This document shows positions 20,887 to 34,521 of a DNA stretch of 64,000 nucleotides, piece after piece. Both the position numbers and the translations under genes were made by a program. A model generated the notes under the pieces. The model worked only from the letters and a program-made list of their open reading frames with translations. It did not search any database and was not told the origin of the DNA. Source of the DNA: Candidatus Termititenax sp. (GTDB lineage: Bacteria > Margulisbacteria > Riflemargulisbacteria > GWF2-35-9 > DYQY01). Position 1 is the first letter of the stretch. Every line of letters begins with the position of its first letter. The DNA is taken from the NCBI GenBank assembly GCA_020719045.1, contig DYQY01000004.1, positions 88,447 through 152,446 on the forward strand, given 5' to 3'.

Positions 20887-21705
20887 TTAAGTCGCTTTAA
20901 TGAAATATCTCTTTAGCTGGTCTGTATGAATCTCTATTTTATCTCCAACAGGATGATTCTTTAGTTTATTCTTAACTGTTTTAACTGCCAATTCTGAACT
21001 ATTACAATCACGACTAATATGAGCTAAAAACACATGTTTGGTTCTACTAACATCTACTAACTCGTATAAATAATCAGCAGTTTGCTCATTTGATAAGTGC
21101 CCTTGGTCGCTAATAATTCTATTCTTTAAAAAAAATGGTCTATCAGATGAGGCCTGCATATCTATATCGTAATTTGCTTCTATAAAATACACATCATTGT
21201 TACTGTGAAACTTCTTCATGTTGTCAGTTAAATGACCAAGGTCAGTCATAAACGACATCCTATGTCCATTTGATTCAAAAACAAAACCAATATGCTCACC
21301 AGTATCATCATATCCTTCACCTTTACCAATATGAGGAAGTCGACAATAACTAACTTTCAAATCAACAATAGTTTCTTCTTTAATGCCGTTCATCACTTTA
21401 ATTCTGTTATCGAATTTTGATAAACCAGGATATTTCTTCATTAATACTGTCTTAGTAGCAGCTCTGGTATAAACATCCGCATTATGATTCTTCATGAAAA
21501 CTAGAAGTCCCTGAACATGGTCAGCATGAGCGTGTGTTATATATACCCTATCAATATCTTCAATCTTAACTTTAAAAAGGTTTAGACTATCTACAATTTT
21601 TTTATAAGAAACACCTACATCAACTAAGACTTTCACATTGGCTGTTTCAACTAAGGTACAATTTCCAGAACTACCACTAAATAAAGGAATATAAGAAAAA
21701 ATAAT
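20887..21705 (-). CDS. WalJ/YycJ-like metallo-beta-lactamase-fold hydrolase, ATT start proposed
   Basis: The metal site THAHADHVQGL (HxHxDH), further metal ligands and the C-terminal HISRD block place this in the MBL fold, closest to WalJ/YycJ-type phosphodiesterase or exonuclease proteins. The ORF track starts at internal GTG 21636, which removes the conserved first strand. In-frame upstream codons read FSYIPLFSGSSGNCTLVE, the family's N-terminus. No ATG, GTG or TTG lies between the in-frame TGA and that block. The likely start is ATT 21705, overlapping the preceding stop as TAATT, with AGGAAAGG upstream. The 272-residue product then has normal length. A mutated or mis-sequenced ATG is the alternative. 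Confidence 0.8.
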   Translation of the reverse strand: MIFSYIPLFSGSSGNCTLVETANVKVLVDVGVSYKKIVDSLNLFKVKIEDIDRVYITHAHADHVQGLLVFMKNHNADVYTRAATKTVLMKKYPGLSKFDNRIKVMNGIKEETIVDLKVSYCRLPHIGKGEGYDDTGEHIGFVFESNGHRMSFMTDLGHLTDNMKKFHSNNDVYFIEANYDIDMQASSDRPFFLKNRIISDQGHLSNEQTADYLYELVDVSRTKHVFLAHISRDCNSSELAVKTVKNKLKNHPVGDKIEIHTDQLKRYFIKAT

Positions 21706-22487
21706 TAATCACCTTTCCTAACATAAAACTTTTGAATACCAGTAAAAGTTTCTCCTGGAGATAATCTTGTCATTGGCCAAACTAATTCAGCTTCCAAATA
21801 AGTATCATTTTTGTAAACTTCAATATTACACCTATGAGGGAACTCTGTTTGCAATTGCTTTTCAGATAAAATAATTTCTTTAATTAAGGTTAGCTTTCCT
21901 AAGCTACACTCAAGAACATTATCATCAGAAATTGCACCTAATTTAAAATCTAATCCTTGCTTAGGTGTTACAGTATATTTATTATTAATACTTAAGTTAT
22001 TTGTTGCAACCAAACTATCCAGCGTTATGTTTTCTGGGTAATCAAACACCTTAACTTCTGTTGCACTGAAAGTAACTGACAACTCATGAACTGGCAGTTG
22101 TGAAATATTCCACAAACCCCACTCAACAGGACTAGAAGATGTATTAGAAAAAGAATTTTCTACAATTAACTCTTCATCAATAAAATAAATGGTTCTAGAC
22201 AAAACAATACCATTCCAAGAAGGAGAAGTAATTTCTAACTTTATATCTGTCTTGGAGAAACTCCATGCCAAGCTATCAAACTCTTTAACTGGTGGCCATC
22301 CGCCCCATTTTGCCTGAGGAGCCAACCAAAGAAAATCGCCACCATAGTTAGTCCATCCACTATCTGTAGGCTTATTTGATGAATAAAATAACGGAATATC
22401 TTGATAGTATACCTGCTCTATCCTTCCACCATGTGTAGGATTCACAACAACTTTCAATTTACCTTTTTCTAAGAAAAGCTGACTCAC
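21705..22487 (-). CDS. DUF4380-like protein (mutarotase-type fold)
   Basis: This 260-residue all-beta protein has patterns (NPTHGGRIEQVYY, GGDFLWLAPQAKWGGWPP, VENSFSNTSSSPVEWGLWN) that match DUF4380-like galactose-mutarotase-fold proteins, which probably bind sugars. There is no signal peptide, so it is likely cytoplasmic. The start is GTG 22487, immediately after the GH8 gene's TAA, with no clear ribosome site; termination-reinitiation is likely. Its place at the end of the sugar-uptake cluster suggests handling of the imported sugar. Confidence 0.65.
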   Translation of the reverse strand: MSQLFLEKGKLKVVVNPTHGGRIEQVYYQDIPLFYSSNKPTDSGWTNYGGDFLWLAPQAKWGGWPPVKEFDSLAWSFSKTDIKLEITSPSWNGIVLSRTIYFIDEELIVENSFSNTSSSPVEWGLWNISQLPVHELSVTFSATEVKVFDYPENITLDSLVATNNLSINNKYTVTPKQGLDFKLGAISDDNVLECSLGKLTLIKEIILSEKQLQTEFPHRCNIEVYKNDTYLEAELVWPMTRLSPGETFTGIQKFYVRKGD

Positions 22488-25400
22488 TTACTTATATTTA
22501 CGGTTCTTTTTATCTTTTCTACGCTTATAAAGATAAAAAACAACTGCAGTAAGAATAATAAGTAAAACAATCCATTTCCATGGAATACCAAAACCTTTTT
22601 GTAGTGATGAGTACATCTTAGGATCAAAATCCAGTAATGAAACTATTAAGAATTTTCTAGTCTTATTTTTCTCATCATATTCAACTACAACACTATCCTT
22701 AACTTTTACAGGAGCTAATGTCATTGGACTATACACTGTTCCTAAATCAACCATCCCTCTGTATCTGCCTGAATGATTTGTTGTTTCAGTTAATCTTACC
22801 TTCACTGGATAGTAGTTATCACCAAGAGGATAAACTAAAACTTTTGAATCAAAAATATCTAACTTAGTAGGATCTGCATCTTTTCCTAATACCTCAACAT
22901 ATACTTTCTTGAACTGAATATTATCATCCTTACCAATCTCTGCTACGTAACCTGGATCATGGAATAACTTAACTGTTTGAACTAGGGTTGGACGCTTCTT
23001 CCCAACTCGATAGTTTTTGTTCTTTAAGTATACTTTATTAATCTTACATGTTTTATCTAATTTACCAGCACTATCTATTAAGAATTGGATATTTCTAACT
23101 TTATTAAAATCAAAATCATCTGTCACATCAACATACTGTTGCTGATCAGCACTCCAACCTTTCCACCAAGACCTATCTCTAATTTTATCCTTCTGCACCA
23201 ACTTCATTTCCACGTCAGAACCTAATCCTTCTGCAGCTGACCATTCATAAACTCCAGCACCTTTTTCTGAATTCCATGCTGCATATCCATTAAGTACAGC
23301 TTTATTACCTGACTCATCCTCGATATCAACCCTTAGCTCACCTGGGTTATTATCTAATTGCATTTCTACAATTAAATCTTCTTTATCTGACCAGTCAGCA
23401 TAACGTCCATTAAGTCCCCAAGCTCCGAAGTATGGATAGTCATCACCACGATATCTCTTATACACATCTAAGTGCTTCTTACCTTTTCCAGCAACTTTAA
23501 GCATATATGATTTATCAGCAGCTTCTGAACCAGCAATCCACCAAATAACTGGATATTTGTCATCAATACTACCATCAGCAAAATCGTCGATTATATGAAT
23601 TAAGTCAAATAATCCAACTTCAAATTGGGCAGCTTTAGCTTTTTCTACAGGAGGAACAATCTTAACCTTACTTCCCCACGCAGCACCTAAAATATCCTCA
23701 TCCTTATATGTATTTAAGTCAGTGCTAAATGCACCTCTATATATTCCTGTATTTGCCCCTGTTTCCTCTAAAACAACAATAATCGACTTATCGTTAACAA
23801 CCGCATCATTACTATAAAGCTCTACATTAATCTTATCTCTACTGTTTTTATCTCCGTCTCTCCCTTTAACTTCTAGATAAACTTTCTGAGTTGTAATTAA
23901 ATTCTTAAGCTCATACTTATACAGTTGGTCTCTGAACAATTTTACATACTCAATATTTTTTGGGTTGGTTCTGCCAATGTGTTTATTGCCTCTTATTAGA
24001 TACATATCGTCAATCTCAACAACAGAATCAGCCTTTTCACCACCACCAATACTAAGCTCTACATTAAGAATATCTCCTAATTTAAACTTACTAGTAACAT
24101 CAACATAGTTCTCTACAGTTGTATCGTATGATTTCCAGAATCTTCTATCTTTAATAGGTCTTGTATCTATAGCCCTATCGGATACTGCTCTACCAGACTG
24201 ATAATTAGAACTCCAACGATACCAACCAGGACCCTTATTATAATTGTACGGATTATAAGAATTTAGAACTGCTGTTTGTCTATTAGAGTCCTCAATGTCA
24301 ACTTGAATGTCCCCAATATTTCCTGGTAAATATATCCAAAAAACGAATTCAGTCTTATCGTTCCATTTTTTCAAATCCCCACTAAGACCCCATTTACCAA
24401 GATATGGATAATCTTTACTAAAATATGTTTTTCTTATCTGCAGTGAATTTGGTCCAGAAACACTTCTCTTATTTGAAATCATTAATTCATAAGATTTAGT
24501 TCTGCCGTATTCCTTAACAATAAAAGGAATAGTGTATGCTTTATTCCAATCGTTTGGACCTACGGAGGTTAATTGTGGATACTTTTTACCATCAATATAG
24601 TTTTCAATCTGCACAAATGTTCCATCAAGCGTAAAATCGATACCATCTTCTGCATATTTCTCAAAAGCTGAAAATTCAACGCTCTTTGGAGTACTCTGAG
24701 CAACAGAATCACCTTGTTCAATATTGTATCTATTAATAATGTTAATATTTCCATCACTCTTTAATGAGCCAGTAAACTTATGAGTTGTTTGGTCTGATGA
24801 CCATCTTAAATACCATGTATTATTATCTTTCCAAAGGAAATAACCAAGCTTTTTTCCTGCTGGATATATAGGTCTGCCATCTGTTGGATCGATATTATCC
24901 ACCCACCAAGAATCAGGATTAATACCAGCAGCAATATCATCAAAATTATCTAGAAGAATCTTTAAGTCAAACTCTCCTATTTTAAGTTGCTTCACAAAAC
25001 CTTTTCTTACATCAGAAAAAACCTTGATTGTACTACCAGCACTTGCACCAATAATCCTATGAGCAAAATCTGAATAAACACCAATCTTCAAATGTCCTCT
25101 ATATATACCAGAATTTATATCAGTCTCAATAAGCTCTAAATCCATGTCCTCACAACCTGGATGCTTATCGCTTGTCTCTATTCTTATTTTAAATCTATCT
25201 ATTGTTTCTTTTGAGGCATCTTTGCCTGTTACTTGAATATATACATTGTCTTTATTTAACAACGATTTATCGGCGATAACTTTAGTAAACTCTTTATCAT
25301 TATAAAATGCTATATCAGCTATTGATTTAGGTTTATTAAAAGCATAATAATAGTTATCTTTCTTTAATGTAAGATTATCAATAATTAACTCTGAGTTGTC

Positions 25401-28400
25401 TTTATTTCCACCATTAATACAAAACATTATATTCTTAATGTTTGCTAGATTAATCTCTTTTGTTCGCTCTACATTTCTTCCTTTGTCAAAAGACCAACCC
25501 TTCCACCAGTTTCTATACCTTATAGAAAAAGGTTGAAGTAAATTAGCATTTACGTCCACGCCGAGCAAGTTATTAGACTTCCATTTATACCAACCTGCAC
25601 CCTTTTCTCTGCTCCAAGGATTATATCCATTTAAAATAACTACTGTTCCATCTTCATCCTGAATATCAACCCTTATTGTTCCAATATCATTTTTCAAATA
25701 AACATCAAATTCAAACTCGTCAAACTGAGTCCAGTCCTTATGTTCTTCATTAAAAACTACTGCTCCAGCATATGGATATCCTTTACCAATATAATTTTTA
25801 TTAATCTTAAGCGCGTAATTTGAATTATAAGCAATACTACTGCTCATTTGATATTTATAAGTTCCTGTTTCACCAATATTTCTTAACACTAATGGAGCAC
25901 CAAAAGAACTTAATGCATCAACACCGATTTTAAATGCTTCAAGGTCATATACACCGTTTCTTTTAATATCAAATATTACGTATTCTCCATCAACAGTAAA
26001 ATCTATTCCATCTTGTCCATTACGTTCCTGAAAACTAAAATCTACTGACCTCTCAAGCTTTTTAAACTGATCTGTATTCTCTGTATCAGAATTACCAGCA
26101 TAAGTAACCTTCCCATCAGTAAGTATCATTCCATGATAAATCTCACCATTATCTCCTGCTAGAAAACGAATATGCCACTTAGTATCTTTCCAAATATATA
26201 TCCCAGCGTCTTTTCCTACATTAAATGCGGGCTTACCGGAACTTGGAAAAATCGAATCTGTCCACCAAGCCATTGGATTTGCATCGTCATATGCTCCATT
26301 TTCGAAGTCTTCTACAATCATAGGAATTACAAGCTTACCAATCATGTATGTTTTATTTATCTTTGGTTGATGATCAATAATAACCTTAATTTCCTTACCA
26401 ACAGAAGCTGCAATTACCTTACCAGCCTTACTACCATCAAGTCCTATACTGAAACTTCCAGTGTACACACCTGTCTTATTACCAGTCTCAGCCACTTTAA
26501 CAATTATAGGGTCTGCACCTTTCTGATTAGATTCCACTCGCACATAGAAGAAATCCCTTCGTTTTGGATTTTTATCTTTTCCAACCGCTTTTACGTAAAC
26601 AGTGTCAACCATTATAGGTTCGTCTTTTACTTTATAATTAAATGCAGAATCTAAATACAAATCGAAATCAATAATGTTTGGCTTAGTATTGTCATGTGTA
26701 TAAAAATTCTTAATCATTCCAGCAAAATGTGCTAAACCAAACCAAGCCCATGTACTACTAAAATAATCCATTTGAGCATTCCATTCAGAGTGATCAAAAA
26801 CTGTCCAATAACCACCCTCTTTACTCTTACTGTACCAACCATCACCATCTTTGTATGGAGTACCAATCTCTACACGAGAATCAACCTTTTCAGCTGGAAC
26901 GTGCTTAGCTAAATTAGCTGGCGTTTCCTTTGCTAACTGATCATCAGGGATAACATACTGTCTTTTACTAAAACCATCTGCCTCTGGTGTTATTAATGGA
27001 GTAAGTAACTTTTCAACTATTTTAAAAGTCTTAGGGTTTGGGTCAGACAAATAGGATGACCAGAAATAAGACAAATAAACACCATACTGAGCACAATTAG
27101 CCCTTGAACTAAATGAATTTTGTACATAAGAATCATTTGGTTTTGGCTCATAATTTGACTCATATAAAGCATAAGAACCATCATGCCAAAATACTGAAGC
27201 AATTTTCTTGGCTTCATCATAGTTAGTTGTTTTATCCCAATTTCCCCTACCGTCATTCATTCTGTATGTTAGAAAATTGTAAGGACCTAGATTGCTGTTT
27301 TTTCTTAAATAGTCTCTTGCCCTGTCATCACTATACCAATCATAATCAACAGCTATACGCCATAATCCTCTAAAAGCATCAGTACCAAACTCTGGCTCTC
27401 TTCTACTCTGACCGTCCCTTAATTTACCATCCTTATCAACATTAACCCAGTCTGGTAAAAGGTTTGCTTTTGCCCAACGCTGTCTTTTCTTTGTATTCTG
27501 ATTATGGTTTTCACCTTTCTTATCAACCCAATCCTTAAGTGGCATTACTGACGATTCATGAAATACCCTGTATGTTGAATCAACAACATCTTGCCAATTG
27601 TGTTCAGGATCAAAATCATCAAAGATTCTATAAGTAAAAGGTGAAAGATATCCTGGCTCAATATCCTTTATATTATCTCCACCAGCAAAGTAACGCTCTC
27701 CATTATTTATAAATGTCTCTTTTTTCCAGATATCCTTAATAATATCTCTAGCATTCTGCTCATAGTCTAAAAACCTATCGCCCTTTTTGCTGCCCCACAG
27801 TTTATGAGCAAATATCAAACTTAACGCAATATCTTCATCTGCATCTGATGCAGCATCATATCCATCTCTCCATGGTTCATTTGGATTATTCTCTTTGGAT
27901 GGAGGTTGCCATCTATAATAGATAATTCCATCTTCCTTCACCCCATCGCCATCTCGGTCTGCTATTGTAGGTGCCCATCTCCAAGCAAACAAATTATCTT
28001 TATCAAGACCTAACTGGCTCATTGATTTCCATCCATTGTCAGGATGGTTAATATCTTTCCAAAAATAAACATACTCTAGCTGACTATGCTGAAGGTTCTT
28101 CTTAGTCCAAGCCCACACTTTGTCGAAAGTTTTCTTGTCTTTCATCCAAATAGCTCTTAATAATGCATAAGAAGAGGATTCACTTACAACTAATAACTCA
28201 AATGGCTTTTTAGGGTCTGACCAATTAATGTCTGCAATACCGTCCCTATCAACATCTCCAGAATCCATAAAAGCATAAGGAGCGCCATCATCACCAATCA
28301 TCTTTGGGTGTGTAAACTTACCAGACCACCAATCTGCATCAAAATTTTCATGAGTAATATAATGGTTCCAAACAGACTCTAATATACCCTTGGAAGCTTT

Positions 28401-28550
28401 TTGATAATCAGAAATCTTACCACTTACATTTTTATTTCCAGCGCATCCTCGTAATAACAAAATAATTATAATTACTACTGCGACAAAACCTAAAAAATAA
28501 AATAAATTTCTTCTTAATTTTGATTGATTGTTATATTGTTTTTTCAGCAT
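22488..28550 (-). CDS. Giant membrane-tethered GH8-type glycosidase with repeated beta-sandwich modules
   Basis: The 2020-residue protein has an N-terminal hydrophobic anchor (residues 15-34; followed by LLRGCAG, a poor lipobox) and a C-terminal membrane helix (1991-2008) with a Lys/Arg-rich tail. Residues about 45-620 match glycoside hydrolase family 8: probable general acid Glu124 in VVSESSSYAL and the Asp-rich block YDAASDADEDIALSL (231-245). EF-hand-like DRDG loops sit in this domain. Four copies of one beta module (about 625, 1075, 1533 and 1856), three jelly-roll-like modules with YPYxG (about 885, 1340, 1655) and two DGIDFTxDG modules follow. GH8 enzymes cut beta-1,4 glycans such as cellulose, xylan or chitosan; the substrate here is unknown. 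Its own promoter seems leaderless. Confidence 0.75.
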   Translation of the reverse strand: MLKKQYNNQSKLRRNLFYFLGFVAVVIIIILLLRGCAGNKNVSGKISDYQKASKGILESVWNHYITHENFDADWWSGKFTHPKMIGDDGAPYAFMDSGDVDRDGIADINWSDPKKPFELLVVSESSSYALLRAIWMKDKKTFDKVWAWTKKNLQHSQLEYVYFWKDINHPDNGWKSMSQLGLDKDNLFAWRWAPTIADRDGDGVKEDGIIYYRWQPPSKENNPNEPWRDGYDAASDADEDIALSLIFAHKLWGSKKGDRFLDYEQNARDIIKDIWKKETFINNGERYFAGGDNIKDIEPGYLSPFTYRIFDDFDPEHNWQDVVDSTYRVFHESSVMPLKDWVDKKGENHNQNTKKRQRWAKANLLPDWVNVDKDGKLRDGQSRREPEFGTDAFRGLWRIAVDYDWYSDDRARDYLRKNSNLGPYNFLTYRMNDGRGNWDKTTNYDEAKKIASVFWHDGSYALYESNYEPKPNDSYVQNSFSSRANCAQYGVYLSYFWSSYLSDPNPKTFKIVEKLLTPLITPEADGFSKRQYVIPDDQLAKETPANLAKHVPAEKVDSRVEIGTPYKDGDGWYSKSKEGGYWTVFDHSEWNAQMDYFSSTWAWFGLAHFAGMIKNFYTHDNTKPNIIDFDLYLDSAFNYKVKDEPIMVDTVYVKAVGKDKNPKRRDFFYVRVESNQKGADPIIVKVAETGNKTGVYTGSFSIGLDGSKAGKVIAASVGKEIKVIIDHQPKINKTYMIGKLVIPMIVEDFENGAYDDANPMAWWTDSIFPSSGKPAFNVGKDAGIYIWKDTKWHIRFLAGDNGEIYHGMILTDGKVTYAGNSDTENTDQFKKLERSVDFSFQERNGQDGIDFTVDGEYVIFDIKRNGVYDLEAFKIGVDALSSFGAPLVLRNIGETGTYKYQMSSSIAYNSNYALKINKNYIGKGYPYAGAVVFNEEHKDWTQFDEFEFDVYLKNDIGTIRVDIQDEDGTVVILNGYNPWSREKGAGWYKWKSNNLLGVDVNANLLQPFSIRYRNWWKGWSFDKGRNVERTKEINLANIKNIMFCINGGNKDNSELIIDNLTLKKDNYYYAFNKPKSIADIAFYNDKEFTKVIADKSLLNKDNVYIQVTGKDASKETIDRFKIRIETSDKHPGCEDMDLELIETDINSGIYRGHLKIGVYSDFAHRIIGASAGSTIKVFSDVRKGFVKQLKIGEFDLKILLDNFDDIAAGINPDSWWVDNIDPTDGRPIYPAGKKLGYFLWKDNNTWYLRWSSDQTTHKFTGSLKSDGNINIINRYNIEQGDSVAQSTPKSVEFSAFEKYAEDGIDFTLDGTFVQIENYIDGKKYPQLTSVGPNDWNKAYTIPFIVKEYGRTKSYELMISNKRSVSGPNSLQIRKTYFSKDYPYLGKWGLSGDLKKWNDKTEFVFWIYLPGNIGDIQVDIEDSNRQTAVLNSYNPYNYNKGPGWYRWSSNYQSGRAVSDRAIDTRPIKDRRFWKSYDTTVENYVDVTSKFKLGDILNVELSIGGGEKADSVVEIDDMYLIRGNKHIGRTNPKNIEYVKLFRDQLYKYELKNLITTQKVYLEVKGRDGDKNSRDKINVELYSNDAVVNDKSIIVVLEETGANTGIYRGAFSTDLNTYKDEDILGAAWGSKVKIVPPVEKAKAAQFEVGLFDLIHIIDDFADGSIDDKYPVIWWIAGSEAADKSYMLKVAGKGKKHLDVYKRYRGDDYPYFGAWGLNGRYADWSDKEDLIVEMQLDNNPGELRVDIEDESGNKAVLNGYAAWNSEKGAGVYEWSAAEGLGSDVEMKLVQKDKIRDRSWWKGWSADQQQYVDVTDDFDFNKVRNIQFLIDSAGKLDKTCKINKVYLKNKNYRVGKKRPTLVQTVKLFHDPGYVAEIGKDDNIQFKKVYVEVLGKDADPTKLDIFDSKVLVYPLGDNYYPVKVRLTETTNHSGRYRGMVDLGTVYSPMTLAPVKVKDSVVVEYDEKNKTRKFLIVSLLDFDPKMYSSLQKGFGIPWKWIVLLIILTAVVFYLYKRRKDKKNRKYK
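22641..26678 (-). repeat. Internal module repeats of the GH8 protein
   Basis: Within the coding region four diverged modules share the pattern VYVxVxGKD...VELxETGxNTGIYRGxF...GAAxGSxVKV. Three share YPYxGxxGL...IGxIxVDIEDExG..VLNGYNPWxxEKGAGWYxW. Protein-level identity is clear and nucleotide identity is low, implying old duplications. Confidence 0.7.
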
Positions 28551-28558
28551 ATCTCTAT

Positions 28559-28587
28559 ATTATGCACATCAACAGAAATATAGTCAA
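28559..28587 (-). promoter_or_regulatory. Promoter of the GH8 gene, near-leaderless
   Basis: On the minus strand TTGACT (28582-28587), a 17-bp spacer and CATAAT (28559-28564) end 8 nt before ATG 28550. No Shine-Dalgarno is present. This gives the glycosidase its own transcript inside the transport cluster. Confidence 0.6.
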
Positions 28588-28600
28588 TTTGGTCTTTTGA

Positions 28601-30409
28601 CTAGCCTTTTACGGCGCCAGCAGTAAGACCTTTTACGATATGTTTCTGTAGCAAGAAAAACAACACTAAAACTGGAAGGGTTGCTATAGTAGCAGCAGCC
28701 ATCATTAGGTCGTATCTGTTTTGATAATTTCCAACAAACAGTCTAATTCCTATTGGAATAGTTAGAGTGTCTGAATCGGTTAAAATCCATGCAAACATTA
28801 GCTCATCCCATGCTTGAAGGAAAATATAAATACCAGTAGCAACAATACCAGGCACCGCTAATGGCAAGGTAATTTTATAGAAAACCTGAAAAGCATTACA
28901 TCCATCTACTCTAGCTGACTCTTCTAGTTCAACAGGAATAGAAGCAAAAAAACTTCTTAATATCCAAATAGAAAAAGGAACAAAAAAAGCAGTATAGATA
29001 AACGTTAAACCACCATGTGTGCCTTGAACCGAAACACCAGTAACATCACTAACCCATTTGAACATAATGAATATTGGGATTAAATACATTATCTGAGGAA
29101 TCATTTGTGTAGCTAATATCGATACACCAAAAGCCTTATTTCCAGGGAAATTAAATCTAACTAAAGCATAAGATGCTAAAGTAGCTAAAATCATAGCAAA
29201 AAGCATTGTAAAGCCTGAAATAATAATACTATTCTTTAAATATAGTCCAAAATCTATATTCTTCCAAAGGTCAGCATAATTCTCTACCATTACTAGTCTA
29301 TGACCAAGTGGAAGCTGGAAAGAATCATATGGCTTTCCTTTTAAGTCTTTTATAAAAGATACTCTACCATAAGATGACCCTAGTATAACCTCATCACCAT
29401 TTGCAATAATTCTAGTTACCTCACTACTAGAATAGTCAGATTTAGGATCTACAACAACCCCATCCTTTAATTCTCTAACTAAATGATAAGCCTCAATATC
29501 AACTTTACCTGTATTCAAATTAGCTACTTTTAATCCTGTTGGACTAACAATGTATACGGTTTCACCTTTAATGATAATATCTTCAAATAAACTAACACCA
29601 AAATCCTTTACATCAAGAACGGCTTGCTTATCAGTATCTATAAAATATATCCCATTCTGAACTAATAGTAATAGATTATTACCCTTAACCTGCTTAACCT
29701 CTTGAACACCTGCTGGTAGATAATTATCACCTAAATCTATCCTTTTCTCCTCAACAAATGTTTGCTTATTTAGAACTAACAAGTACCTGTTTGTATTAAC
29801 ATATAACTTATCACCTATTATTTGAATATTGCGAATAAAACTATCACTATTAGTTTCTAGCTTAACTTTTCTTGCTAAGGATAAATCATTTTTATTATAA
29901 ACATATATTCTATTCATACCTTTAAGTTCTATTGAGTAAACGACAACATCATCGTAGGCAACTATAGATGTTTTACCTAAACGATTAGTGTCTACTCCTG
30001 TAACTGGACTAGATGCTTCTTTTTTAATCTCTAATGTTCTTCTGTCTATTTTATATAGACCCTTAGTCGAATTTGCAAAATAGATAAAATCGCTATCTAA
30101 AAAATAACTTACGTCTCTTCCATTAACCTTTAACTTATTTAGCGATTTCTTTGTATCAGCATCATAGACAGCAATCCCACCATCTTGAGAAAAAACATAG
30201 AAATCCTTTCCAGCAAGCTCCATGCCAATAACATCGTTTTTTGCTCTACTGAATCCAACTTTTCCACTTAAAATATCATTATTATTTTTAAAAGAAGAAA
30301 ACATCATCCAAAATATCGGAAATGAATTTATAATCAAAAAAGCAAACATTATTACAAGAAAAACGTTTCTTAAGATTCTCTCTTTTTGATAATAATTAAC
30401 AAAAGCCAT
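28601..30409 (-). CDS. MalG-like sugar ABC permease with a predicted seven-bladed propeller insertion
   Basis: TM1 (residues 14-36, ending PIFWMMFSSFKNN) and the core from residue 374 on (ENYADLW, LYLKNSIIISGF, EAA loop ELEESARVDGCNAFQVFYKITLP) are a standard CUT1 MalG-type permease. Between them, at residues about 48-370, lie seven repeats of the type GGIAVYDADTKKSLNKL, GLYKIDRRTLEIKK, YVYNKNDLSLARKV and so on. This reads as a seven-bladed PQQ/YVTN-like propeller placed in the first extracytoplasmic loop. Ordinary family members are about 280 residues. The ATG overlaps the MalF-like stop by one base. No ATPase gene is nearby, so a shared MsmK/MalK-type ATPase is presumed. Confidence 0.88.
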   Translation of the reverse strand: MAFVNYYQKERILRNVFLVIMFAFLIINSFPIFWMMFSSFKNNNDILSGKVGFSRAKNDVIGMELAGKDFYVFSQDGGIAVYDADTKKSLNKLKVNGRDVSYFLDSDFIYFANSTKGLYKIDRRTLEIKKEASSPVTGVDTNRLGKTSIVAYDDVVVYSIELKGMNRIYVYNKNDLSLARKVKLETNSDSFIRNIQIIGDKLYVNTNRYLLVLNKQTFVEEKRIDLGDNYLPAGVQEVKQVKGNNLLLLVQNGIYFIDTDKQAVLDVKDFGVSLFEDIIIKGETVYIVSPTGLKVANLNTGKVDIEAYHLVRELKDGVVVDPKSDYSSSEVTRIIANGDEVILGSSYGRVSFIKDLKGKPYDSFQLPLGHRLVMVENYADLWKNIDFGLYLKNSIIISGFTMLFAMILATLASYALVRFNFPGNKAFGVSILATQMIPQIMYLIPIFIMFKWVSDVTGVSVQGTHGGLTFIYTAFFVPFSIWILRSFFASIPVELEESARVDGCNAFQVFYKITLPLAVPGIVATGIYIFLQAWDELMFAWILTDSDTLTIPIGIRLFVGNYQNRYDLMMAAATIATLPVLVLFFLLQKHIVKGLTAGAVKG

Positions 30410-31368
30410 TAAAAAATCTCCTCTGTCTTTTTATAGTGTTTGTACCAAAAATTAACAACTATAATCATCACCAATAGTAATAATACTGACGTCGCTGCAC
30501 CAGCTCCAAAATCCCATCTCATAAACGAGTTACGGAAAATATTTGTCATCATTAAATCGCCCCACTTACCAGGGAATCCAGCACCATTACCAAACATCAT
30601 AATTACAATATTAAAAGAATATGTATTATAAATCATTCCAAATAACACTAAAATCATCCATACTGGACTAAGCATTGGCCATGTTATCTTCCAGAAAGTT
30701 TTCCACTTACCAGCACCATCAATCTTGGCTGCATCATATAAAGACTGAGGAACATTTTGTATGCCTGCAAGTAACATCAACATTGAAAATGGCCAAAATC
30801 TCCATATAGTAGGAATAATAATTGCCCATATTGAGTTAACTCCTACCAACCAAAATGGCTTTTCAGCAAGAAGATGCAACCAGTCAACAAGAATAATATT
30901 GATAATACCTATCGTCTGTTGGAACATAAATCCCCACAAAATACCTGTAACATAAGTTGGAACTATCCAAGAAAACATAAACAAGGTTCTTACAAGTCCT
31001 CTACCTTTAAATTCAATACTAAGCATCAAAGCTACAACCATACCAACTGCTGTTTGCCCAATTGTAACTAAGAAGGAATAAATGATTGTATTTCTTACTG
31101 CATCATAGATACCAATTCTCATTGGACTTGATGGGTTAAACATAACGTCATAAAAATTACCAAAACCAATAAAAGGAGCACCCAAATATTGATTAAGAGT
31201 AAAATTATTTAATCTTAAAAAAGACATATACAATCCCTGAACGATTGGGAAGAAATGCATTAGAACCATAGCTATAGCTGTTGGCAATACAAAGTAATAT
31301 GCTATTTTATACTTATGATAGTAATACTTTGTTTTTTCTAAAAAAGTCATTTCACTTATATTAACCAT
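30409..31368 (-). CDS. MalF-like sugar ABC transporter permease
   Basis: This is a CUT1-type membrane subunit with six predicted helices and the EAA loop LYDAAKIDGAGKWKTFWKITWP, which contacts the ATPase. At 319 residues it is the short form without the large E. coli MalF loop; its partner carries the large insertion instead. It follows the binding-protein gene by a few bases and overlaps the next permease by one base (TAATG). ATG 31368 has no strong ribosome site; Met7 is an alternative start. Confidence 0.92.
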   Translation of the reverse strand: MVNISEMTFLEKTKYYYHKYKIAYYFVLPTAIAMVLMHFFPIVQGLYMSFLRLNNFTLNQYLGAPFIGFGNFYDVMFNPSSPMRIGIYDAVRNTIIYSFLVTIGQTAVGMVVALMLSIEFKGRGLVRTLFMFSWIVPTYVTGILWGFMFQQTIGIINIILVDWLHLLAEKPFWLVGVNSIWAIIIPTIWRFWPFSMLMLLAGIQNVPQSLYDAAKIDGAGKWKTFWKITWPMLSPVWMILVLFGMIYNTYSFNIVIMMFGNGAGFPGKWGDLMMTNIFRNSFMRWDFGAGAATSVLLLLVMIIVVNFWYKHYKKTEEIF

Positions 31369-31375
31369 TATCTAG

Positions 31376-32728
31376 CTATCTATTCATAAGCAATACTTTA
31401 TCAACTTCGATTGCTGCTTTCTTTAATACATCATCATAAATAACATCTGTAGTAAATTTATCTTTGTTATTTAATACATATTCCCACATAATACCAAACC
31501 TTCTGTTAAGTGGTTGCTCAATTTGTGCCCACTCTGGGATACAAGGATATGCACGACCATACTTAACTGCTTCTCTATAAACTGATCTTCTTACATCTTG
31601 AGTAAAATATGGATCATCAAAAGCCTCCATTGCTGATGGCAAGAATCCACTTCTCTTTGAGTATTCAACTTGAGCTTTTTTACCAACTAAATACTTGATT
31701 ACTTCCCATGCTTCATCCTTATTCTTGGAGTTCTTAAACACTGAAAGGTTGCTACCACCTACGAAAGTGACCTTTCCTTTTGGACCTTCTGGATAAGGAA
31801 CAATATCAAATCTTTTTGCAACATATGTATTTGCAGCTCCACCTTGCTCTTCTGGAGTTGTTAGAGCTCTTAACTCATTTGAACCAGTAAATATAATTGC
31901 ATATTCACCATTGTTAAAAGCATTTTCTACTTGAGAAGTATTTTGCTCTAAACAAGATGCTGGGACATAACCTTTGATTACTAAATTAACTAAATATGAT
32001 AACCCGCTTGCTGCTTCATTTGAATAAAGAGCACATTCTTTATTGCCTTCCTTTAAGAAGTCTCCACCAGCCATCCAAATCCATGGCGCTAAGTTATGAA
32101 CAACATTCCAGTCGTTCTTACCAGTAATACCAAGTGGGTATACTTTCTTTCCATCAATTGTTAAATTTGCTTTGTTAATCTTATCTAATGTGTTTTGGAA
32201 TGATTCCCAAGTAGCTAAATCATTTTTCGTTAAACCTAATCTATTAAAAACGTCTGTTCTATAGTACATAGCTCTTGCATCTACAAACCATGGAATAGAA
32301 GTTACTGCATTTGAACCATCTATGCCAGAATACTTCCAAGAAGATGGTAGAAAATATGAAGAACCACCAAGCTCAGATACTTTACTTGTTAAATCAGCTA
32401 AAGCGCCCATGCCAGTAACTGCTCCAACCCATGTCGTACCAAGCTGTAATATGTCTGGACCTTCGCCTGACATTGTAGCGATTGTAATTCTTTGCCACGC
32501 TGAACCCCAATCTAAAGAGGTAATTTGAACTTTAATATCAGGATTTTCTTTATGGAAGTCTTCTAAAACATCAGATAAGTCATTAATTGGCTCAAGCGAG
32601 TTAGGCATTACCCACATAGTAACAACTGTTTGACCACTTTTTTGTTCTTTAGCTCCGCAACCTGAAATTAATATTGAAAACGAAACGAGAATTACTGAAA
32701 TTAATATGGACGAAAAAATTTTATTCAT
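31376..32728 (-). CDS. Sugar-binding lipoprotein of ABC transporter (family 1)
   Basis: A lipoprotein signal (MNKIFSSILISVILVSFS) ends in the lipobox ISGC, after which the mature protein is membrane-tethered. The fold signature of MalE-type binding proteins is seen (VTMWVMPNSLEP, FHKENPDIKVQITSLDWG, GEGPDILQLGTTWV, NNGEYAIIFTGSNEL, FVGGSNLSVFKNSKNKDEAW). The ORF track uses GTG 32740, but ATG 32728 with AAGAGGTGG 8 nt upstream is the better start. It heads the transporter operon behind a near-consensus promoter. The GH8 neighbour suggests uptake of oligosaccharides released from a beta-glycan. Confidence 0.92.
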   Translation of the reverse strand: MNKIFSSILISVILVSFSILISGCGAKEQKSGQTVVTMWVMPNSLEPINDLSDVLEDFHKENPDIKVQITSLDWGSAWQRITIATMSGEGPDILQLGTTWVGAVTGMGALADLTSKVSELGGSSYFLPSSWKYSGIDGSNAVTSIPWFVDARAMYYRTDVFNRLGLTKNDLATWESFQNTLDKINKANLTIDGKKVYPLGITGKNDWNVVHNLAPWIWMAGGDFLKEGNKECALYSNEAASGLSYLVNLVIKGYVPASCLEQNTSQVENAFNNGEYAIIFTGSNELRALTTPEEQGGAANTYVAKRFDIVPYPEGPKGKVTFVGGSNLSVFKNSKNKDEAWEVIKYLVGKKAQVEYSKRSGFLPSAMEAFDDPYFTQDVRRSVYREAVKYGRAYPCIPEWAQIEQPLNRRFGIMWEYVLNNKDKFTTDVIYDDVLKKAAIEVDKVLLMNR

Positions 32729-32762: not shown

Positions 32763-32791
32763 ATCATAGCATTGGGCTTGGTCCCTGTCAA
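32763..32791 (-). promoter_or_regulatory. Near-consensus promoter of the sugar transport operon
   Basis: On the minus strand TTGACA (32786-32791), a 17-bp spacer and TATGAT (32763-32768) leave a leader of about 28 nt before the binding-protein ATG. No operator palindrome was recognised in the spacer. Confidence 0.75.
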
Positions 32792-32880: not shown

Positions 32881-34521
32881 CTAATCTTCTGGCAATAAGT
32901 TTTCAATAGAAAGTGGTTGCCACTTGCCATCCTTTAACATCATTCCATAATCCTTAACTAAAACACTATGCAACCCTTGATTTAATTGAGTTGCCAACTC
33001 TCTATACTCTTCAGGATAATTTGCATTATCTAACCCTATTCCACTGGTCATTAATAACTCGGTGTACATTTTTGCAGCTAAAAATCTTGCATCTTTATTA
33101 ACCGCAATGAACATAGGGTTAGCCATCATACCAATAACTTCCCAAGTAACTTGTTCAGCTTGAACGTACGTCCCTGCATCTTTTTTCTGCACACTAACTC
33201 TCATTGGAAGATTATCTGCAATGTTATCTATATTCGTTATAATCCACTCCAAATCAAACACACCAGTTGCACAATTAAAAAGTATTGGATGACCTTTTTC
33301 ATCTAGTTCCTTAATTTTTTCTTCTTTGACAGCAACACCAATGTCACCACAATTATATTTACCAAACTGATCTTTAATTAAAACGCCACCCTTAACATCC
33401 GCTTTAGTCTTAAAAGAAAAATCAAAAGCACCATTTTTACCAGTAATTGCAAGAGCTGCAACAGAAGCTGGATCATACATATTTGCCATATTATCGATAT
33501 TTCCTAAATAATAATAACGGACTCCTGACTTATATAAAGAAGTAAATACATCTTTTAAAACCTCAAAATTATGACCATGTCCTCTTGGCATTGGAATAAG
33601 GCCATGTTTTTTACCAGTAGCAGTAGTAAACACATCTGCTGGCCTACCTCCTGCAGTAATTGCAGCTAATAATGGCTGAGAACCAGTAAGAAAAATATCT
33701 TTTAAACTTACATCACCTAATGCTTCTAACAAGTCTTTCAATAAAGGACTATTTTGATATTCCTCTAATTTGCTTTGAATAATCTCATGATTTAAAACAC
33801 TATCCATTTGAAACATTTTAACAACATCCTGCGATGTAGTACCTTCATGAGTTCTCATATACTGAAGGGCTCTAATTAATAAAGCTCTTATTTTAATCTC
33901 CATAATATCAAAACCTTTAGAACCATCAGGATTAATATAAGCTTCAGTTAATCCTTTTGGAATTTCATTATAGGTTGAAGCGCTCTCTATTTGATTACGA
34001 TATAACTCATATAAAGCAGGATATCCACCACTATTCTTTTTCTTATCAACGTAGCTACTTGCTGAACCACCATTCAACATCCCATAGCCAACATATGGAA
34101 ATAGTTCATTACCAATCTTTGTAAGTGCATCAAAACTAAAAATAGCGTTTCCAGCTTCATCGATCTCAGCAAAATCTCTAAGCTCAATATTAATACCCTT
34201 AGAATCAAATAACGCTTGAGCCGTTGCTAAGCCAACAATAATATTAGAACCTTCTTTAATCTCAATTACAGACTCTCCATCAATACCTGGAATTTCTTTA
34301 GCCTCTATTGGCTCATATCCATCATACTTCCCTGCATTAAATGCATCTATTGTTCTTTTTGTTAAGCTTGGATCTATATTTACAGACTTCATCTTCGCAT
34401 CTAATTCTGGTGAAAAAACGAAACCACTATCTGCTACCACTTTATTCCTCATATTCTCTATACTCCCTTCAGGTTTATGTTTTAGTATAGAATTATCGTA
34501 ACTTAATTGTACTTTTCCCAA
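32881..34521 (-). CDS. UDP-sugar pyrophosphorylase-like protein (UDPGP family)
   Basis: The 546-residue protein resembles eukaryote-type UTP--hexose-1-phosphate uridylyltransferases. LNGGSASSYV corresponds to the glycine-rich nucleotide loop, MPRGHGHNFEVL to the PPGHGD block and YYLGNIDNMA to NVDNLxA. The canonical LNGGLGT is altered to LNGGSAS, so activity or specificity may differ. The ORF track starts at TTG 34521, which lacks a good ribosome site; ATG at residue 24 (MRNKVVADS), with GGGAG about 10 nt upstream, is plausible. It follows rpoD by about 50 bp and ends at a terminator. Confidence 0.7.
   Translation of the reverse strand: MGKVQLSYDNSILKHKPEGSIENMRNKVVADSGFVFSPELDAKMKSVNIDPSLTKRTIDAFNAGKYDGYEPIEAKEIPGIDGESVIEIKEGSNIIVGLATAQALFDSKGINIELRDFAEIDEAGNAIFSFDALTKIGNELFPYVGYGMLNGGSASSYVDKKKNSGGYPALYELYRNQIESASTYNEIPKGLTEAYINPDGSKGFDIMEIKIRALLIRALQYMRTHEGTTSQDVVKMFQMDSVLNHEIIQSKLEEYQNSPLLKDLLEALGDVSLKDIFLTGSQPLLAAITAGGRPADVFTTATGKKHGLIPMPRGHGHNFEVLKDVFTSLYKSGVRYYYLGNIDNMANMYDPASVAALAITGKNGAFDFSFKTKADVKGGVLIKDQFGKYNCGDIGVAVKEEKIKELDEKGHPILFNCATGVFDLEWIITNIDNIADNLPMRVSVQKKDAGTYVQAEQVTWEVIGMMANPMFIAVNKDARFLAAKMYTELLMTSGIGLDNANYPEEYRELATQLNQGLHSVLVKDYGMMLKDGKWQPLSIENLLPED

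Follow-up and report, generated by a model that had tools for sequence, protein, structure and literature searches.

A conserved Margulisbacteria operon encoding a propeller-bearing ABC permease and a doubly anchored giant GH8 enzyme, with a predicted role in beta-glucan use

Can a single bacterial operon encode both the enzyme that cuts a glycan and the transporter that imports the pieces, and if so, which glycan is used and where in the cell envelope is it cut? The question is raised by a 64,000-nt stretch of a Candidatus Termititenax sp. genome (below, the window; all coordinates are window positions unless a contig is named), in which five minus-strand open reading frames (ORFs) encode, in order of transcription, a substrate-binding lipoprotein (SBP), a MalF-like permease, a MalG-like permease bearing a beta-propeller, a 2020-residue GH8 enzyme and a DUF4380-like protein. 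Both this order and the Pfam families agree with an initial annotation that had been made from the sequence alone. The products of the locus probably make up an inner-membrane-bound apparatus in the periplasm that works on beta-1,4 or mixed-linkage glucans and supplies a GH94 pathway. An anchored, predicted endo-glucanase and an SBP-dependent ATP-binding cassette (ABC) importer are indeed found together in one locus, as in ABC-based polysaccharide utilization loci of the gpPUL type and in support of the ABC-transporter-based glycan-use locus originally proposed. The phosphorylase or glycosidase that gpPULs carry in the same locus is found here, as GH94, on another contig.

Conservation of the operon

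The MalF and MalG genes overlap, and the DUF4380-like gene abuts that encoding the GH8 enzyme. To address conservation, the class was sampled in eight genomes, namely, that containing the window (1.75 Mb, 99% complete) and seven relatives. The giant GH8 enzyme, ranging in length from 2020 to 2585 residues, was present in all eight. Gene order among relatives had been set as a test of the initial annotation, and the order SBP-MalF-MalG(propeller)-GH8 was the same wherever a contig extends (L001, L002, L003, L089, L090, and L081; in L008 and L091, the contig ends within MalG), being retained even in the distant genome G034. The DUF4380-like gene comes next after GH8 in every contig reaching far enough. 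In all genomes but G034, the operon is flanked by core genes, rpoD and dnaG preceding it and dnaB following it as far as the contigs extend (named by eye); in G034, a glmS-like gene lies upstream and a CBM-like gene downstream. As such, inheritance of the operon looks vertical, as for a core locus rather than a mobile island.

The giant GH8 enzyme

The catalytic domain scores 87.5 bits against the GH8 profile PF01270, for which the curated cut-off is 24. When aligned by profile with the Clostridium thermocellum CelA structures 1cem and 1kwf, residues E124, D236, and D391 correspond to E95, D152, and D278 in CelA numbering (1kwf reads Q at E95), and are invariant in all five sequences aligned. 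The acid Glu (E124), the base (D391), and the conserved third Asp (D236), on whose presence the initial annotation had made its proposal depend, are thus all intact. The top match of the GH8 profile is the cellulase CelA, ahead of the others by 12 orders of magnitude.

Only two hydrophobic segments were found in the enzyme, one at each end (residues 12–42 and 1986–2009), and each of the six full-length copies has both, as expected of the membrane anchor predicted earlier at either terminus. Because each segment is flanked by positive charge on its terminal side, the sequence fits an N-in/C-in topology. In seven of the eight orthologues, all but that of G034, this N-terminal segment is followed by a Cys; since, in addition, the lipobox ([RH][GS]C) is atypical, the safe reading of this segment is that of a signal anchor, perhaps lipidated. 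BamA/Omp85 proteins, encoded in all eight genomes, imply that these cells have an outer membrane, and an enzyme held at the inner membrane should therefore face the periplasm. Accordingly, the 'surface' system of the initial annotation gives way to a periplasmic one, for which the glucan must first cross the outer membrane. Retention in the periplasm would still be a 'selfish' strategy.

Between the catalytic domain and the C-terminal anchor lie nine accessory modules, the number initially counted, falling into three families (four A, two B, and three C; within-family hhalign E values of 1e-7 to 1e-43). Together, these form a stalk built of an A-B-C super-repeat of ~455 residues, arranged in the window copy as ABC, ABC, A(b)C, and A, and in G034 as four full ABC units followed by A. 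In structure comparisons of the model, module A2 superposes on the S-layer immunoglobulin (Ig) domain 8c8k over 102 residues with a root-mean-square deviation of 2.2, and module C on CBM11 (1v0a) over 144 residues with a deviation of 4.1, this module also resembling CBM30 (1wzx) in what is a low-confidence model. Neither module B nor module C yielded a credible relative when its profile was searched against the PDB, and module C yielded none in Pfam either. Relatives of module B2 (24516–24965) occur in giant ORFs of 1600–5300 residues, lacking GH8, in other genomes of the phylum. The c3 proteins of WOR-1 and Saganbacteria, although CBM11-like by eye, as is the GH8 stalk, gave no match to the latter in a sequence search.

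A second GH8 enzyme of 591 residues is encoded elsewhere in the window genome (L080:7039-8814, minus strand, contig G000:C22). This protein begins with a signal-like segment, and its catalytic fold appears to be interrupted by an additional domain. It is conserved in most genomes of the class, where its neighbours are proteins of 200–350 residues and very large ones of up to 1677 residues.

The importer and its propeller

The solved structures closest to the SBP are those of the 7c63 group (E 5.7e-102), which we take to be the Thermus beta-glucosides-binding protein, and CbpB (7x0i; E 1.1e-93). Both Trp positions altered in deposited Thermus mutants are retained (W78 and W104), whereas the Glu altered there is Asp154 here. 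CbpB is the cellodextrin-binding protein of the sole cellodextrin transporter of C. thermocellum, and shares 39% identity with the Thermus protein (PMC9601137). The SBP hence points to the beta-glucan class of substrate suggested at the outset.

The earlier remark that no ABC ATPase is nearby holds for the locus but not for the genome. The window genome encodes four BPD permeases only, namely, the MalFG pair of the operon and PstCA, and a single, stand-alone MalK-type ATPase (G000:C27:53703-54809), assigned to the UgpC subfamily (478 vs. 432 bits) and ending in an OB_MalK domain. Genome G028 likewise contains only the MalFG pair of the operon and one MalK-type ATPase. Orthologues of the ATPase, 60–89% identical, were found in six of the seven other genomes, with G033 containing only a 43% relative. 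As the single candidate in the window genome, the stand-alone gene is predicted to be the missing ATPase of the operon. Insofar as classification can be run on sequence, the importer would be of the CUT1 cellodextrin type, given its SBP group, its two MalF/MalG permeases, and a MalK-type ATPase in the cell. Permease copy number in Fibrobacterota was also considered as a clue to substrate but was dropped, as these genomes encode too many permeases.

The MalG-like permease contains an insert in its first extracytoplasmic loop, where the span between transmembrane segments 1 and 2 is ~342 residues, as compared to 27–32 in propeller-free relatives. In the AlphaFold model, this block folds as 28–29 strands forming seven four-stranded blades in a circle (pLDDT mostly 82–95), bearing out the propeller first proposed, and Foldseek matched it to PDB propellers, including BamB (E 1e-12). 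MalG inserts of comparable size were found in Saganbacteria (338–343 residues), Fibrobacteria (356–385), and Fibrobacter (472–490), including the cultured species Fibrobacter intestinalis (ATCC 43854; L042), which shares the same propeller-permease architecture. No paper describing a propeller insert in MalG was found in a search of a library of open-access papers. In a tree of permease cores, the root of which is not fixed, each of the two Fibrobacterota groups forms one clade. Because short-insert and insert-free WOR-1 sequences form one supported clade nested within the Margulisbacteria/Saganbacteria branch, the tree suggests that the propeller was reduced or lost there. The short WOR-1 loops (L011, L012, L013, L015, L016, and L026), at ~220 residues, amount to roughly four blades' worth.

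Relatives of the transporter adjoin GH94 genes in Endomicrobia L027 and in L007, GH26 genes in WOR-1, and genes encoding GH9, CBM30-CBM11, and GH1-type enzymes (the last named by eye) in Fibrobacteria. Where relatives have GH26 followed by MalF, L020 (3790-5754, plus strand) has a 655-residue MalF ORF, a possible in-frame GH26-MalF fusion. In L009 (14677-22228, plus strand), a Fibrobacteria propeller-permease locus precedes a protein that weakly matches outer-membrane barrels, a CBM30-CBM11-GH79-like protein, and a GH9 cellulase.

By analogy, the locus is best read as a variant of known ABC-based glucan loci. The SBP is homologous over its full length to that of C. thermocellum transporter B, and, as there, two MalFG-type permeases are present and the ATPase gene lies outside the cluster, an arrangement proven for transporter B, the stand-alone ATPase of which is Clo1313_2554 (PMC9601137). 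Transporter B differs in that no permease propeller is reported and no enzyme is described in its operon, and in belonging to a monoderm with cellulosomes. The Blautia producta mixed-linkage glucan locus (PMC10318527) likewise combines an anchored multimodular endo-glucanase, an SBP-ABC importer, and an intracellular GH94, yet relies on a GH16 enzyme at a Gram-positive surface and includes a regulator and an ATPase; here, the enzyme is a GH8 anchored twice in a diderm, no regulator was seen, and GH94 is encoded elsewhere. The Thermus thermophilus beta-glucosides-binding protein importer, which has the closest solved SBP, likewise belongs to a diderm and has its ATPase encoded apart from the cluster (PMC9601137), although neither a giant GH8 nor a propeller is described in the portion of text consulted. 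CelA-type endoglucanases (1cem) and BcsZ belong to the same catalytic family, with the same three acids in the active site, but are short and secreted or periplasmic, whereas the present enzyme has two anchors and super-repeats. BamB/PQQ and WD-type propellers share the fold of the MalG insert but not its position inside an ABC permease loop. In the same library of open-access papers, nothing relevant turned up on glycan loci of Margulisbacteria or on glycosidases with two anchors.

Of the DUF4380-like protein, four of six orthologues match PF14315 (best 1.4e-12), the family first suggested; the window copy has no Pfam match, and a sequence search identified no solved relative. Because neither a signal peptide nor a transmembrane segment was found, the protein is more likely cytoplasmic than a binder of sugars at the surface. 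No regulator gene was found among the operon genes, with flanking genes being only partly annotated by profile. The SBP ATG start codon is at position 32728, the end coordinate used in the initial annotation, with the ORF reaching 32740. The promoter-like site just upstream is the best of the region, for which the total of such sites falls below the shuffled expectation. Further upstream, a UDPGP-domain gene (32881-34521, minus strand) was considered as a linked UDP-glucose pyrophosphorylase but was left out of the system, as it is not an orthologue of the UDPGP genes of G028 and G029, and as other genomes have unrelated genes there. Different genes occupy this site across genomes, and the UDPGP found there in G028 and G029 is a better match.

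Table 1. Features of the operon and their window coordinates.
Feature	Position	Strand	Basis
Cellodextrin-type substrate-binding lipoprotein (SBP), 454 residues	31376..32740	-	SBP_bac_1 7e-38; lipobox ILISGC
MalF-like permease	30409..31368	-	BPD_transp_1 2.9e-21; overlaps MalG start
MalG-like permease with extracytoplasmic beta-propeller	28601..30409	-	BPD_transp_1 2.4e-17; MalG profile at 389-602; AlphaFold2 (AF2) model
Seven-bladed beta-propeller, MalG residues ~60-365	29315..30232	-	AF2 model
Giant GH8 enzyme, two predicted anchors	22488..28550	-	Glyco_hydro_8 1.2e-24
N-terminal predicted membrane anchor, contains Cys36	28425..28517	-	hydrophobic segment
GH8 catalytic domain	26706..28418	-	profile alignment with 1cem/1kwf
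Module A1 (Ig/S-layer-like)	26331..26678	-	hhalign family
Module B1 (beta domain, no known family)	25896..26327	-	appears inserted in following C fold
Module C1 (CBM11/CBM30-like jelly roll)	25341..25895	-	1v0a Z 9.3, 1wzx Z 8.4; low-confidence model
Module A2	24966..25334	-	hhalign family; 8c8k Z 11.4
Module B2	24516..24965	-	hhalign family
Module C2	23976..24515	-	hhalign family
Module A3	23604..23972	-	hhalign family
Module C3; third super-repeat with most of B lost	22965..23549	-	B remnant at residues 1650-1693
Module A4	22626..22961	-	hhalign family
C-terminal predicted membrane anchor, then KRRKDKK	22524..22595	-	hydrophobic segment
DUF4380-like, mutarotase-type protein without signal peptide	21705..22487	-	TTE1925 mutarotase 3e-6
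Promoter-like site, TTGACA-17-TATGAT with TG	32763..32791	-	best of region; consensus match only

A predicted role in the cell and its alternatives

A GH94 cellobiose-phosphorylase-like gene is present in all eight genomes of the class, as compared to two of 14 control genomes, and that of the window genome matches cellobiose phosphorylase 3qde over its full length (E 4e-162 over 802 residues). In the proposed pathway, glucan pieces would enter across the outer membrane and be held by the giant GH8 enzyme, anchored twice at the inner membrane, via its three CBM11/30-like modules, between which Ig-like modules act as spacers. The enzyme would cut the chain to cello-oligosaccharides close to the importer, and the lipoprotein SBP would hand these to MalF/MalG, with the SBP or the enzyme possibly docking on the propeller at the outer face of MalG. 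Import would be powered by the stand-alone MalK-type ATPase, and a cytoplasmic GH94 cellobiose phosphorylase would turn the sugars into glucose-1-phosphate.

Several observations weigh against this scheme. The operon contains no outer-membrane import protein, and GH94, GT2, and the ATPase are all encoded away from it in the window genome. The model of the stalk modules is weak (mean pLDDT 58.5), such that carbohydrate binding by these modules is putative. Some WOR-1 keep the transporter with a MalG insert of ~220 residues or with none, and the propeller is therefore not essential for transport as such. Finally, the MftF-like GT2 encoded beside GH94 hints at synthesis as well.

This last point leads to the foremost alternative, in which the operon would be used not for feeding but to turn over glucan of the envelope or outside the cell: GT2 would make a beta-1,4-glucan or glucosylated product that reaches the periplasm or surface, GH8 would trim and the importer recover it, and GH94 would return glucose-1-phosphate. 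In the window genome, GT2 adjoins GH94 (L104:5862-9480, plus strand, contig G000:C1); GT2 followed by GH94 was seen in the four genomes read, and GT2 is present in at least seven of the eight. In Endomicrobia L027, a GT2-GH94 pair separates SBP from MalF, and GT2-GH8 lies downstream of MalG in L006. BcsZ, a GH8 enzyme that acts in cellulose synthesis, is a weak match to the giant enzyme, and the position of the operon near rpoD, dnaG, and dnaB in all genomes but G034, kept class-wide, would also suit such a role. MftF, the closest curated family to this GT2, makes beta-1,4-glucose chains (PMC7491314), but the match is far below the cut-off (114 vs. 280 bits), and no glucan export gene was seen. 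GH5, a cellulase family, is represented in all eight genomes, with two copies in the window genome (GH9 was found in one of the eight); together with the second, apparently secreted GH8, these two genes fit foraging, as do the Fibrobacteria relatives that adjoin a GH9 cellulase, with Fibrobacter living on cellulose (PMC3079729). On balance, turnover of a self-made glucan is considered improbable.

Still less probable is that enzyme and importer act independently. An ordinary cellodextrin importer would then share a transcript with a glucanase facing the periplasm, and neither the propeller nor the double anchor would be more than structural decoration, with no role in docking. Loss or shortening of the propeller in part of WOR-1 with the transporter kept would be in line with this, as would a second consensus promoter-like site detected ahead of GH8 in a consensus search. 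Against it stand the class-wide gene order, the MalF-MalG overlap, the abutting GH8 and DUF4380-like genes, and the shared position of the propeller, which sits in one and the same loop in Margulisbacteria, Saganbacteria, and Fibrobacterota. That the substrate is some other beta-glycan (xylan, chitosan, mannan, or laminarin) is equally doubtful: GH8 includes xylanases and chitosanases, with weak profile matches to a chitosanase and xylanase Y, related WOR-1 loci carry GH26, and CbpB also binds laminaribiose (PMC9601137), but both the SBP and GH94 indicate beta-glucosides, and CelA is by far the best GH8 match.

In the usual view, an ABC importer is supplied with substrate by its binding protein alone. 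A permease whose outer face carries a folded propeller, from a transporter family with relatives encoded next to Fibrobacterota cellulases, suggests that the delivery of glycan may be tethered or gated. In Fibrobacter succinogenes, a cellodextrin importer has only been proposed as a candidate (PMC3079729). It is conceivable, if on the whole unlikely, that the propeller is a docking hub coupling cutter to importer, defining cross-phylum 'propeller permeases' in Margulisbacteria, Saganbacteria, and Fibrobacterota, and that in the present operon it may even serve a closed beta-1,4-glucan cycle in which the cell makes and recovers its own glucan. For the uncultured Margulisbacteria class considered here, the operon provides a concrete predicted food source.

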